Of a DNA stretch of 64,000 nucleotides, positions 60,214 through 64,000 are shown in pieces. The notes under the pieces are model-generated. The model saw nothing but the letters and a program-made list of their open reading frames with translations. It was not told the origin of the DNA and searched no databases. Numbering within the stretch: the first letter of the stretch is position 1; every line of letters begins with the position of its first letter. The stretch is from Halopiger xanaduensis SH-6 (GTDB lineage: Archaea > Halobacteriota > Halobacteria > Halobacteriales > Natrialbaceae): positions 570,270 through 634,269 of the forward strand of contig NC_015666.1 of the NCBI RefSeq assembly GCF_000217715.1, read 5' to 3'. A program made the translations under genes and the position numbers.

Positions 60214-60701
60214 ACAGGTGGTGATGGCTCGAGGGGTTTGGGGAGTAGGCTTGAAAAGGAGTGCTTGAGCGAGTCGTAGTACTGCGCGACGACCGCGGAT
60301 GCATCCTCGTACTGGCCGCCGTCGCAGGTGCGCGCGAGGGTCTGCGCGGTCGGTAACCGGCTATCCACAGTCATACAGGTCTGCCCTGCCAGACGTATCA
60401 CGTAACCACCGACTCGAGGGATGAAATCGAAATCGCAAGATGGCGTTGCTTCAAGCCGGTGCTGTAGGAGTTCTATGCCCGCCTAATTATCAGGCCTGAA
60501 AGCGTATATGACCGTCTTTTCGTTCGATCAAATACACTATCGGGAAATTATATATACCCCGCTTCCACTGGTAGTTATCAGCGCCAAATCGGAGCGGCAA
60601 GGAAGGGTGCGACGGGATGGTGTGCTCCAATCCCCCGTGCAGTCGGTGGTACCTTACCACCGTGTATAATCCTTCCGACCGTTCAGGGCGCATGAGAATA
60701 C
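60214..60701. other. Gap upstream of the pilin gene
   Basis: The left ~160 bp on the minus strand (60230-60374) keep codon choice like a gene and encode TLARTCDGGQYEDASA and related residues. The frame runs into the start of the C45 gene without a stop, so it may be a gene remnant. The right part is AT-richer, with AATTATATATACCCC near 60546-60560 and the pilin TATA box. Confidence 0.45.
60662..60671 (+). promoter_or_regulatory. TATA box of the type IV pilin gene
   Basis: GTGTATAATC is centred about 35 nt upstream of ATG 60702 and should give a short (~9 nt) leader. Confidence 0.6.
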
Positions 60702-61154
60702 ATGGATCTGAAACTAATGCGTGACAAACTGGTCGGATCGGAAGAACAACGCGCCGTATCGCCCGTTATCGGAGTTATTCTGATGGTGGCAATTACGGTG
60801 ATTCTGGCTGCAGTGATCGCGACGTTCGTCCTCGATATGGGCGACAGCATGGGCGAAGGTTCGGTAAACGCTGCTCTTGATTCAGATGTCAGCAATGAGG
60901 ACGAAGAAATTACATTCACCCTTGAAAAGGAAGGAAACGCTGAGACGTTCTATGTGCGTAACGGGGACGGTCTAAACAGTAGTTCGAGTGGTAGTGGCGA
61001 ACATGAACTTAGCTTCTCCGGCACTGGATCAACTGTGACGCTCGAGAAGGATAGTAGTAGTGGCGTACTCAATAACACCGGTGACGTGAATATCGTTGCT
61101 GTTGATGGCAACGCTGAGACAGTCATTGGCTCTGTCGAATGGGACTTCTCATAA
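60702..61154 (+). CDS. Type IV pilin
   Basis: A 150-residue archaeal pilin with a short positively charged leader and the class-III signal [18 protein letters not shown] (residues ~18-35). The prepilin peptidase PibD would cut before the conserved hydrophobic helix. The remainder is Ser/Gly/Glu-rich and probably surface-exposed (adhesion or biofilm). The GC content is lower than the neighbouring DNA. No PilB/PilC homologues are adjacent. Confidence 0.88.
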
Positions 61155-61517
61155 ACACGCACTAATATATTTTATTTAACAAGAGTTGGGTTTTACTGGA
61201 CTAAGCGAAAACAGTCCTAACTGCACAGGGTACGTTCAATTGATAAATGAAATCGCCATTCTTAGAGAGGAGACCGGGTTTGGAATCCCGCGAATACGAA
61301 CAGTAGCGGACCACATTCGAGCTTCCGGATAGAAGCCCTAAAACAATAGTCTTCGCACAGATGCGTGAGTTTGAACAATGCCGAGACGTGCTTGCTACGC
61401 ACGACTCGTCTCGTTCAAATCTTGGCGCTGTTACTGCTCACGATGTTCGCAGATAACGGGCACGATGGGATCGGGTGATGTCGATGTTCGCGACGTTCAG
61501 GTTGGCGTTCATGGATT
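61155..61517. other. Lower-GC gap between pilin and integrase
   Basis: A T-rich run after the pilin stop (AATATATTTTATTT, around 61165-61178) may terminate transcription. A long stem-loop lies at 61370-61419. A short piece, CGGGTTTGGAATCCCGCG (around 61275-61292), resembles the 3' arm of a tRNA but cannot fold as a full one. No gene is seen. Confidence 0.5.
61370..61419. repeat. Nested inverted repeat (~50 bp) next to the integrase gene
   Basis: TTTGAAC (61370-61376) pairs with GTTCAAA (61413-61419), CGAGACG (61382-61388) pairs with CGTCTCG (61407-61413), and CGTGC/GCACG form the inner arms. It could be a core attachment site, a terminator or a binding site; orientation and function are unknown. 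Confidence 0.55.
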
Positions 61518-62570
61518 TCATAGGTCTGGAAGGTAGTCGGTGCGCTGTTCGGCCTGCTCGCGGTCGGAACGACGGTCGTAGTGCCGATCGAGGATGTCTT
61601 CGCTCGCATTGAGTCGATCCTTGACGACTCGCCGGGGGACATCCTCGCGACGATAGAAGGTCACGCGACCGCTCCGGAGATCGTGCGGCGACCGTGCCGA
61701 CGGACACTTACTCGCGTGGTCCAGGTGCGTCGCTTCGCACTCGTCAGGATCACGCTCGTGCGGACACGGTTCACCGCGCCAGCAGGGGCGCGTAACGCGG
61801 TAGAGCGTCTTTCGAAGCGTGTTCCCTGCTGGACGGCCGTATTCCGTCGTAATCAACGGTTCCCGGCCGTGGTCGTCCGTCACGTCAGGGCGATGGTACT
61901 CGATATAGTCCTCGAGGTACCGGGCCGTTTTCTCGCTGATTCGGTTCCAGCGAGTCCCCTTCTCCTGATTCTTCAACGGAGTACCGGTATCCGGTCGGTG
62001 AACGAAATGGATCGCAGGCCCGGACACGCGCGGATGCGAACCGTCGAGATCAAGATCTCGCAAGTCGAGCCCACGGATCGCCCCGGTTCGCGCTCCCGTT
62101 CGCCACAGCAACATGACGATAATGTGGTCTCGCGAAGCCGGTTGCGCGTTCTCGAGGTAGTCGAGAATATCGACCGCTCGCTCCGGCTTCAGCGTCGAAT
62201 TCGACACGTCTTCGCCATTTTTCATCGTCGGCAGCGTGACCTGCTCGTACAGCTCTGCCGGGACAGCATCGATGTTCGCTGCGAACCGCAGGAACCGACG
62301 CACTGACGCGAGCTGGCCTTTCAGCGTAACCAACTTGATCGGTTCACGGTCGTCGCCATGACCCTCGCGACGCCAGGTCCGGTATTTGTATAGATCCCGT
62401 CCGGAGAGATCGTTCAGGTTCTCGATTCCCTCTTCATCGCAGAACTGAACGAACGCGCGTAGTCGGTGTTTCTCGCTTCGGCGCGTCGATTCTGCGTGCT
62501 CGTCGCGCATCGCGTCGTGATACATCTTGACCGCTTCGTGCGGTGCGATCGGCTCGAGGTCGGCAGTCAT
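61518..62570 (-). CDS. Tyrosine-type site-specific integrase
   Basis: A 350-residue recombinase. An N-terminal core-binding (SAM-like) domain (about 1-110) is followed by the catalytic domain. Catalytic residues are Arg161 (GARTGAIRGL), Lys200 (TPLKNQEKG), His295-Asp-Leu-Arg298 (SPHDLRSG) and Tyr331 (ILDRHYDRR). Between Arg161 and His295 a Cys set (Cys263, 269, 278, 289 in CWRGEPCPHERDPDECEA...KCPS) suggests a zinc insertion, a feature I recall from haloarchaeal integrases. It marks one end of an integrated element. Confidence 0.9.
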   Translation of the reverse strand: MTADLEPIAPHEAVKMYHDAMRDEHAESTRRSEKHRLRAFVQFCDEEGIENLNDLSGRDLYKYRTWRREGHGDDREPIKLVTLKGQLASVRRFLRFAANIDAVPAELYEQVTLPTMKNGEDVSNSTLKPERAVDILDYLENAQPASRDHIIVMLLWRTGARTGAIRGLDLRDLDLDGSHPRVSGPAIHFVHRPDTGTPLKNQEKGTRWNRISEKTARYLEDYIEYHRPDVTDDHGREPLITTEYGRPAGNTLRKTLYRVTRPCWRGEPCPHERDPDECEATHLDHASKCPSARSPHDLRSGRVTFYRREDVPRRVVKDRLNASEDILDRHYDRRSDREQAEQRTDYLPDL

Positions 62571-62605
62571 CTGCTACCACCTGCTGCCGGTGAACCAACT
62601 ATCAC

Positions 62606-62753
62606 ATCGGACATACACGGTGGAACGAACTTCCGGACATTAGGTCTATAGCGGCTGTGTCCGGAAAACACCAATATTTGCTCTATACCCTGAAACCAAC
62701 GCTGTAAGAGGTTGTATCCCGTGTCCGGAAAGTGGCCGGAAAATGTCCGGGAA
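62606..62753. repeat. Iteron-like array upstream of the integrase
   Basis: Three direct head-to-tail 11-bp units are GTGTCCGGAAA (62721), GTGGCCGGAAA (62732) and ATGTCCGGGAA (62743). A fourth, GTGTCCGGAAA, is at 62657. Inverted copies are CTTCCGGACAT (62630-62640) and a partial ATCGGACAT (62606-62614). The consensus is RTGTCCGGAAA, and the 11-bp spacing is about one helix turn. Likely binding sites for the integrase arm domain, an excisionase or the PhiH1-like repressor. Confidence 0.7.
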
Positions 62754-62880
62754 GCAGATTCGGCAGTACTATCCGCTGATACTGCTGAATACCTGCGTTC
62801 TCGAATATAGTCGCTTTCTAGTCGTCTATACGTCGGTCGAACGGGAATTTTATTCCCTATGGCGTCGAGCGATTGCATGC

Positions 62881-62955
62881 TTCCGTAGTATGGATACGGA
62901 AGCCAGCGGGCCGGTGCCCCTAACACCGGGTCCGCGAATTCTGACGAGGACCCGA
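62881..62955. repeat. Cluster of three perfect stem-loops
   Basis: Hairpin 1 is CTTCCGTA/TACGGAAG (62881-62903, 7-nt loop). Hairpin 2 is CCGGTG/CACCGG (62912-62930, 7-nt loop). Hairpin 3 is CGGGTCC/GGACCCG (62928-62955). Hairpins 2 and 3 overlap, so only one may form at a time. This could be a regulatory RNA, terminator array or structured attachment DNA. Confidence 0.6.
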
Positions 62956-63108
62956 CCGGGCAGCGGCGGGTCCGTCTGGCTCCCGTTGGATTCTCGACTA
63001 TAGCGGAATAACTTAAATCTATGCAATAGAACTTGCACACACAGAATAAAACATGTACCAGGAAATCTCATCGGTGCGACTAAGAAACGATCACCGGAAT
63101 ACCGGGGT

Positions 63109-63414
63109 ATGCGCCCCCGGGTACCGTGGATGAACGAAGTTGACGACTCAATTCTCGAGTTTCTCGACGAGCTCGAGGTCGACGGTCGCCCGGTGGCTCT
63201 CAAACCCGGCGCAGTCCGCTACAACTTGGTCGACGAATTTGGGATGCTAGACAAGAGTCTAAGCACGTTCTCCCGCCGAATGGACCGATTGGCAGAACAT
63301 GGGCTGTTAGAGCAAACAGAAGACGGGAAGGGTTCACCCTACAAGATCACCGAAAAAGGGCGTGCGTATCTCAGCGGCGATCTCGATGCTGCAGATCTCG
63401 AGCGAACCGAATAG
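63109..63414 (+). CDS. PhiH1-like repressor (winged helix)
   Basis: A 101-residue winged-helix protein with VPWMNEVDDSILEFLDELEVDGRPVAL and RMDRLAEHGLLEQTEDGKGSPYKITEKGRAYLSG, the pattern of the Halobacterium virus phiH1 repressor family. In phage phiH1 the repressor controls lytic transcription. Here it probably regulates the integrated element, possibly through the nearby iterons. The MRPRVPWM start is accepted because of its family resemblance. Confidence 0.85.
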   Translation: MRPRVPWMNEVDDSILEFLDELEVDGRPVALKPGAVRYNLVDEFGMLDKSLSTFSRRMDRLAEHGLLEQTEDGKGSPYKITEKGRAYLSGDLDAADLERTE

Positions 63415-63426
63415 CAGAATCAGATT

Positions 63427-64000
63427 CTACCGAGCAGTTCCCAACCGTCGTGCCGCGTCAGCAGAGATAACGATATGGCGGTCTCGAAGTGCAACGCCTC
63501 CGTCGGCAACATCGTCAATCAAATCTGCGAGTGCTGAGAGGTAGTCCCGATTCCGCTCCTCTTGGATGTGTAGCGTCTCCTTCTCGTCGTGTTCGATCGC
63601 CCGGTTCTCGAGATACGCGTACACGAAGGTCTCGCGAACGTCTGCTGGTGCGGCCTCGAGGTAGTTGGGCAGTTCGAGATGCTGGTCGGCCTTCGGACCA
63701 ATCGGTGCGCCAAGCGTGGCGAGCACGCGCCCGAGAACCGTGCCGTCGTCAGTGGGACGAATCTCGTCGGCACGACTGTCGCGATCGGCGACTACCTGAT
63801 AGTCGACGCTGGTCAATTCGAGCGCATCAATGACGTGTGAGTCTTCACTCCGGCGATTCAACGAGAACGACGGACGGTAGTACTGTTCAGCGATCGATCC
63901 GCCTGAAAAGACGTTCGCGACAAGAACATTCAGACCCGCAAACTCCGGATCATCGTAGGAACAATTGAGCCAGCCGTAATCACGTGCCGTCTCAATTCCG
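63427..64000 (-). CDS. Partial protein of the integrated element (possible homing-endonuclease-like)
   Basis: The minus-strand frame is open from the right edge to the TAG at 63427, so its 5' end is outside the window. The visible ~190 residues contain YGWLNCSYDDPEFAG and VLGRVLATLGAPIGPKADQHLELPNYL, then VRETFVYAYLENRA and a Glu-rich helix. The pattern recalls LAGLIDADG-type domains by shape, but no catalytic motif is certain. Native codon use is consistent with a real gene in the element. Confidence 0.55.
   Translation of the reverse strand, partial: GIETARDYGWLNCSYDDPEFAGLNVLVANVFSGGSIAEQYYRPSFSLNRRSEDSHVIDALELTSVDYQVVADRDSRADEIRPTDDGTVLGRVLATLGAPIGPKADQHLELPNYLEAAPADVRETFVYAYLENRAIEHDEKETLHIQEERNRDYLSALADLIDDVADGGVALRDRHIVISADAARRLGTAR

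Follow-up and report, generated by a model that had tools for sequence, protein, structure and literature searches.

The locus described here raises the question of which protein reads an array of 11-bp repeats upstream of a proviral integrase gene, and what such reading would control. Coordinates are those of the window, the whole 64-kb stretch of DNA that was analysed (G000:C3:570270-634269). A sequence-only reading had taken the repeats for iteron-type protein sites, with the integrase and a PhiH1-like protein as possible binders; they are likely to be binding sites, and are conserved in other elements, but both of the proposed binders fit badly.

The provirus and its surroundings

The gene downstream of the repeats encodes a SNJ2-type tyrosine integrase of 350 aa (61518-62570, minus strand), 62% identical to the integrase of SNJ2 and 63% to that of HHPV4. 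By tblastn, homologues of SNJ2 genes are arranged in SNJ2 order, namely int (62%), orf4 (37%), orf9 (41%), orf10 (42%) and orf19, encoding Rep (25%; L009:14992-16611). The attL core, ACGGGCACGATGGGAT (16 bp, 61456-61471), has a second copy, attR, at L009:17624-17639, which was read by eye as the 3' end of an intron-containing tRNA gene; ARAGORN called no tRNA for this gene. With this gene order and att core, the element is a betapleolipovirus (SNJ2-like) provirus of about 15.9 kb. It carries an Orf4-like winged-helix regulator (63109-63414, plus strand; 37% identity to SNJ2 Orf4) and an Orf9-like protein (63427-64000, minus strand, running past the window end; 41% identity to SNJ2 Orf9). No Orf8 gene was found between the Orf9-like and winged-helix genes in the window or, by tblastn over L009 and L010, in this provirus; the similarly arranged provirus of G095 has Orf8 between Orf4 and Orf9.

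Outside attL, positions 60429-61358 of the window hold a second Orf10-like pilin gene, 73% identical to the copy in the provirus and with upstream DNA 90% identical to that of the same copy, as well as a 101-bp stretch 78% identical to the right end of the provirus. The two are probably what is left of another provirus at this tRNA. A second SNJ2-like provirus with int, orf3, orf4, orf7 and orf8 is present in the same genome at C3:3606000-3622000 (L195). Scanning IMG/VR with the window's winged-helix protein and integrase returned no relatives, and a pattern scan of IMG/VR returned 15 contigs, none matching either gene.

Repeat units and promoter geometry

RTGTCCGGAAA, with at most one mismatch, matched five times in the 64-kb window, every match lying inside 62630-62753; shuffled windows gave a mean of 1.7 (sd 1.31), and 4 of 100 shuffles reached five. 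In 2000 dinucleotide shuffles of the intergenic stretch between the winged-helix gene and int alone, which holds all five copies, the mean count was 0.091 and no shuffle had more than 2. The sequence-only reading had located the array correctly and had counted at least four direct copies. Four were found, two without mismatch (62657-62667 and 62721-62731) and two with one mismatch (62732-62742, GTGGCCGGAAA, and 62743-62753, ATGTCCGGGAA), and the three units of 62721-62753 abut at 11 bp, as that reading had said. It had also placed inverted copies nearer the integrase: one is clear (CTTCCGGACAT on the plus strand, 62630-62640, one mismatch), but the second is only an ATGTCCG heptamer (62614-62608), part of GTGTATGTCCGA, a start-codon context that orf7 genes have as well. 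The four direct 11-bp units and the one inverted copy lie within 124 bp, and a single weaker copy of the unit, TTTCCGGCAAT, occurs elsewhere in the provirus.

In int orientation (minus strand) the units read TTTCCGG(A/C)CA(C/T), the first having TTCCC. Unit 1 (TTCCCGGACAT, 62743-62753), unit 2 (TTTCCGGCCAC, 62732-62742) and unit 3 (TTTCCGGACAC, 62721-62731) form a distal cluster, and the promoter-proximal unit 4 (also TTTCCGGACAC, 62657-62667) follows at a distance of 64 bp from unit 3 and 75 bp from unit 2, the latter within the 75-77 bp that characterizes the module. Downstream of unit 4 comes a 15-aa ORF (MSDVIVGSPAAGGSR, 62567-62614, minus strand); the first base of its start codon is 43-53 nt from the unit, and the codon stands 52 nt from the unit's TTCCG. 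Just downstream of unit 4 is a predicted TATA-like stretch, CCTAATG (62638-62644, minus strand), about 24-30 nt upstream of the short ORF by eye. The inverted copy overlaps this stretch; of the ten loci shown, G009:C2:905 (L105) is the one other with such a copy. The stop codon of the 15-aa ORF overlaps the start codon of int (ATGA), and it is these two genes that follow the array, not orf7 as in the SNJ2-type module.

Leaderless transcripts are common in haloarchaea. The array together with a leaderless promoter would transcribe the 15-aa ORF and the integrase, and if the transcript is leaderless, a protein bound at unit 4 would be positioned for activator contact with basal factors. The distal cluster, 64 bp or about six helical turns away, lies on the same helix face as unit 4, and the three distal units and one proximal unit would place a regulator just upstream of the TATA region.

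Recurrence of the module in other genomes

Relatives of the integrase at E <=1e-20 are present in 115 of the 125 genomes of the family. Thirty integrase loci were fetched, one of which was the window itself, and the array was found within 700 bp upstream of the integrase in 0 of the 29 others. Taken alone, this result would speak for a motif that is not conserved, the outcome that had been named in advance as counting against the sequence-only reading. The array does recur elsewhere, though, with int downstream in four further loci. Some related integrase genes are split in two or have an internal stop (L043, at G015:C1:1727954-1728993, and G084:C1:3802793-3803689).

A two-unit pattern matched in 10 of 125 genomes, and its reversed control gave two matches, both in one genome. 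Four of the pattern matches (L104, L110, L111 and L112) were set aside as chance, having no 3+1 layout, and the control of the looser pattern had also matched. In six loci a fourth unit at +75 is in register with three at -11, 0 and +11; the first unit of G033 reads TTCCCGGCCAG, beyond the one-mismatch listing. A broad pattern of two abutting units and a spaced unit gave 20 places in 18 of the 125 family genomes (reversed control 0), and a stricter pattern gave 8 places in 8 of 391 genomes of the class (reversed control 0), all in the window's family. Most of the arrays stand between SNJ2-type orf8 and orf7 genes. SNJ2 has the 3+1 layout in this place, reading TTTCCGTTCA.

Downstream genes were read in 22 loci, comprising the 20 broad-pattern places, SNJ2 and a second G009 locus. 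The gene downstream is orf7 in 15 of them (SNJ2 included; the weakest, L153, is a 45% match) and a SNJ2-type integrase in five, which are the window, G009:C2:905, G009:C2:402, G095 and G075:C51, the last with an orf2 homologue between array and int. Neither orf7 nor an integrase was found downstream of the arrays of L179 and L183, and the array of L184 is longer and irregular. Nineteen of the 22 loci have unit 4 at a distance of 75 or 77 bp from unit 2; for the exceptions, G075, G122 and G009:C2:402, the script chose another fourth unit, and a copy is present at +77 in G075 and at +75 in G122. Fourteen of the 22 loci were translated (9 orf7, 5 int), and in all 14 the start codon comes at exactly 52 nt from the TTCCG of that locus's unit 4. 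All five int-linked promoters have a 15- or 18-aa ORF first, its stop overlapping the int start. In G033 the array lies 2.6 kb from Orf8 and still abuts orf7, which argues that the array belongs to the downstream gene. The array is a real, conserved operator-promoter module. No description of it was found in the literature searched, as far as the available parts of those papers extend; Chen 2023 may have mapped part of the promoter.

An Orf8-type regulator as candidate binder

We consider it likely that the array is the operator of a DNA-damage-responsive regulator of the Orc1/Cdc6 family, of the SNJ2 Orf8 type, within the leaderless promoter of the 15-aa ORF and int. An Orf8-type protein would bind the array and activate, with DNA damage as the signal here: damage would cause the regulator to switch on int, and excision would follow. 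Chen 2023 is said to have found that, in SNJ2, Orf8 activates orf7 and Orf7 counters the repressor Orf4. The module of SNJ2 would act on orf7, which it precedes, and that of the window and four other loci directly on int. The available parts of two papers report that the Orc1/Cdc6 homologue of SNJ2 is involved in the lysogenic-lytic switch (PMC10544981) and that mitomycin C induces SNJ2 excision (PMC13107129).

SNJ2 Orf8 is Orc1/Cdc6-like, matching Pfam Cdc6_lid and AAA, and TIGR02928 at 9.1e-51, just under the cut-off; the Orf8 homologue of G009 matches PDB 2qby at 8e-20. Homologues of at least 48% identity are present in 29 of 125 genomes (in G100 over 255 residues only), and a distinct group of relatives at about 35-43% identity is present in nearly all genomes. 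The 29 include all 18 genomes that have the array (hypergeometric 1.4e-14), a value that overstates independence because the 48% cut was chosen with the list in view, the genomes are related to one another and Orf8 is the neighbour of most arrays. Motif type tracks the Orf8 tree: the SNJ2 clade has TTTCCG(T/C)TCA, the clade of G033, G095, G050, G009, G021 and G108 has TTTCCGG(C/A)CA, G007 and G008 have TTTCCGCCCA, and G118 and G020 have a TTCTGCCCA-like motif. No recognisable array was found within 250 bp downstream of Orf8 in L131, L132, L133, L135, L138, L141 and L142; in G033 (L132) and G095 (L133) the array lies farther from Orf8, before orf7 and int respectively.

The single Orf8 of the window's genome (C3:3614824-3615831) is encoded in the second provirus and belongs to the SNJ2 clade, with the array type TTTCCG(T/C)TCA. 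The window array is of the other type, TTTCCGG(A/C)CA, and regulation here may therefore be weak or absent. Two further int arrays stand without a local Orf8, G009:C2:905 and G075:C51 (for G075, the stretch read runs to the end of the contig), and in both genomes an Orf8 of the matching type is encoded elsewhere; control in trans is therefore plausible, with the least support for the window itself. Orc1/Cdc6 paralogues other than Orf8 in G000 and G009 showed no close TTCCG pairs at the 18 loci scanned.

Alternative readings of the array

It is unlikely that another conserved virus protein, for example an Orf9-like one, or a host factor binds the array. Such a binder would suit a provirus without Orf8, and the window's provirus, SNJ2, G095 and the proviruses of the CGGAA class described below have Orf9-like genes. 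SNJ2 Orf9, however, had no match around either array locus of G009, and against any binder other than Orf8 stand the tracking of the Orf8 tree by motif type and the presence of Orf8 in every array genome.

Orf4-type repressors control lysogeny in SNJ2. As the gene for the divergent PhiH1-like (Orf4) winged-helix repressor lies next to the array, the array could be its operator, keeping int off in the lysogen. We regard this as very unlikely: the winged-helix protein of L060 is 82% identical, yet its locus has no array, and at G009:C2:402 (16 kb, tblastn) Orf8 and int surround the array and SNJ2 Orf4 has no match. A different inverted repeat, TGCAAGTTCTATTGCA (63022-63037, minus strand), stands at the winged-helix-side promoter beside a TATA-like TTTAAGT (63011-63017) and is, by eye, identical in the window and L060. 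Inverted repeats on this side differ, by eye, between winged-helix groups, L049, L066 and L067 forming one, L050, L051, L053 and L061 another, and the window going with L060; these repeats, TGCAAGTTCTATTGCA among them, are candidate Orf4 operators.

As arm-type integrase sites, the repeats would serve integration and excision together with the att core, and both their place beside int and their helical spacing agree with this. It is nonetheless highly improbable: the int gene lies between the array and the att core (61456-61471), at a distance of about 1.16 kb, the array was found in none of the 29 other integrase loci, 15 of the 22 array loci have orf7, which encodes no integrase, downstream of it, and its distance to a start codon is fixed, at +52. 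The array does not match what is expected of an integrase arm site; a PhiH1-like operator is probably to be dismissed as well. Replication iterons for a virus initiator are extremely improbable: the units are direct 11-bp repeats, and truncation upstream of int reduced SNJ2 plasmid stability, but in the same, partly available source the SNJ2 origin is a hairpin downstream of rep and the replicating plasmid lacks the orf4-orf10 region (PMC13107129), to which the SNJ2 array, before orf7, belongs, and the window array, compared with the Rep homologue (L009:14992-16611) and the published SNJ2 origin, is not at an origin next to rep.

Structured leader of the int operon

Upstream of the array in int orientation lies a conserved structured leader of the int operon, contained with the first 45 nt from its ATG in the stretch 62834-63006 (minus strand). 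It consists of three strands (62976-62986, 62896-62906 and 62879-62887) that form two mutually exclusive helices, the possible partners of the middle strand being the 5' strand and the one directly before the ATG. In SNJ2-like elements, among them SNJ2, HRPV9 and Halfgib1, the leader precedes the operon's first ORF. Alignment A1 contained 27 of 37 regions; of the other ten, nine had no leader at the usual place, and in one, L086, no leader start was found. Compensatory changes occur in both helices (P1, 3 of 7 pairs; P4, 3 of 9 pairs); for covariation in A1, 0 of 500 shuffles reached any of five measures, and a second test gave 0 to 5 of 500. An alignment-free search for the three strands reached 22, against a shuffle maximum of 20, and the alignment counts were clearer. 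Rfam at the gathering threshold returned no match for three loci, and for the window a single weak sub-threshold match near 61256-61294. The leader looks like an RNA switch; the rival reading is a single-strand origin of rolling-circle replication.

A second structured stretch (CGACGGAC...GTCCGCGGTCCCAC...GTGAGACC-ATG), which by eye is built like the int-operon leader and abuts a start codon, lies between CGGAA arrays and the next ORF in L050, L051, L053, L049 and others.

A mirror-image array class and a host repair operon

Many other SNJ2-type integrases are preceded by pairs of CGGAA, which is TTCCG in reverse; some loci lack such pairs. For 31 loci together, 18 pairs 9-12 bp apart were counted (shuffle mean 0.24, maximum 2) and 11 pairs 63-67 bp apart (shuffle mean 0.25, maximum 3), in tests that are not blind because the repeats had first been noticed by eye. 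A genome-wide search for the CGGAA pattern, which is more independent, gave 36 places in 29 of 125 genomes and 0 in the control. Six of these places had no locus and were left out of the reading; the remaining 30 comprised 17 before integrases, 8 before one host gene and 5 origin-like repeats. The last five (L200, L201, L208, L211 and L220) were rejected as promoters, being read by eye as origin-type repeats, and we take them to resemble ORB boxes. The notion that CGGAA repeats are a separate, unrelated system was dropped, since their spacing is similar to that of the TTTCCG module.

The product of the host gene has a weak Rad51/RadB match (Pfam Rad51 7.8e-5 for L212; none for three others). 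A small protein starting MG(R/K)TNPTYRD is encoded after it, and in the one locus read further a family-B DNA polymerase comes next and an Orc1/Cdc6 paralogue lies upstream. Judged by gene order and by the PPB2 'MGRT' motif, both as given in the available part of PMC11791011, the eight loci (L212 and L222 among them) are the iRadA-PPB2-PolB2 operon, which encodes the translesion mutasome. According to the same part, damage induces PolB2 operons, and orc1/cdc6 is enriched around them (PMC11791011). A protein match to iRadA was found in 61 of 125 genomes, and none in that of the window. Among 30 host iRadA loci fetched (L230-L259), all had a close CGGAA pair, 29 had copies 60-78 bp apart and 27 had an Orc1/Cdc6 match within the flank. 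Spaced CGGAA arrays before iRadA-PPB2-PolB2, beside an Orc1/Cdc6 paralogue, are a candidate haloarchaeal DNA-damage operator in their own right. In the CGGAA-class proviruses, 0 of the 5 read over 15 kb had an Orc1/Cdc6 gene, and their regulator would therefore have to be host-derived. Core, spacing and neighbouring genes together suggest that both mirror classes are bound by related proteins.

Relation to known systems and significance

The closest likeness to the window array is the SNJ2 orf8-orf7 promoter, with the same 3+1 layout and TTTCCG core; in G059, the near-identical relative of SNJ2, the start codon is 52 nt after unit 4, as in the window. The window differs in having int behind a 15-aa ORF instead of orf7, in a provirus without Orf8, in its motif (TTTCCGG(A/C)CA against TTTCCG(T/C)TCA) and in a distance from unit 3 to unit 4 of 64 bp against 66 bp. 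The host iRadA-PPB2-PolB2 promoter is like the window in that, at many loci, its proximal sites lie about 48-58 nt before the start codon, but its core reads CGGAA toward the gene, in the opposite orientation and with other flanking bases, and its pairs are mostly 8-12 bp apart.

Bacterial LexA/SOS control of prophages couples a damage response to prophage exit. The regulation proposed here would differ in having no LexA, an AAA+ regulator of the Orc1/Cdc6 type and probably activation rather than derepression. Sulfolobus Orc1-2 resembles the proposal in being a non-initiator Orc1/Cdc6 protein that serves as a damage regulator, and has TTTC in the core of its element, ANTTTC, according to the available part of that report (PMC9738581); there the element is a hexamer and not a spaced array, and the host is distant.

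It is possible, and we put it forward tentatively, that these arrays are a haloarchaeal SOS-like operator code, in which Orc1/Cdc6-family proteins would read spaced TTTCCG and CGGAA arrays on the host PolB2 translesion operon and, in copied or mirrored form, on the exit genes of many proviruses. Some proviruses would carry the sensor, Orf8, and others, that of the window included, only the operator on int, with the sensor supplied in trans by the host or a co-resident provirus. How archaea and their proviruses sense damage without LexA is largely an open question outside Sulfolobus. The array offers a concrete operator with fixed geometry, and its motif variants may be a binding code of Orc1/Cdc6 regulators. 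At the five int-linked loci it would provide a short route from damage signal to excision. The module would link the host repair operon with virus excision, and because sites of similar layout stand before that operon, virus escape and cell repair may share an alarm signal.
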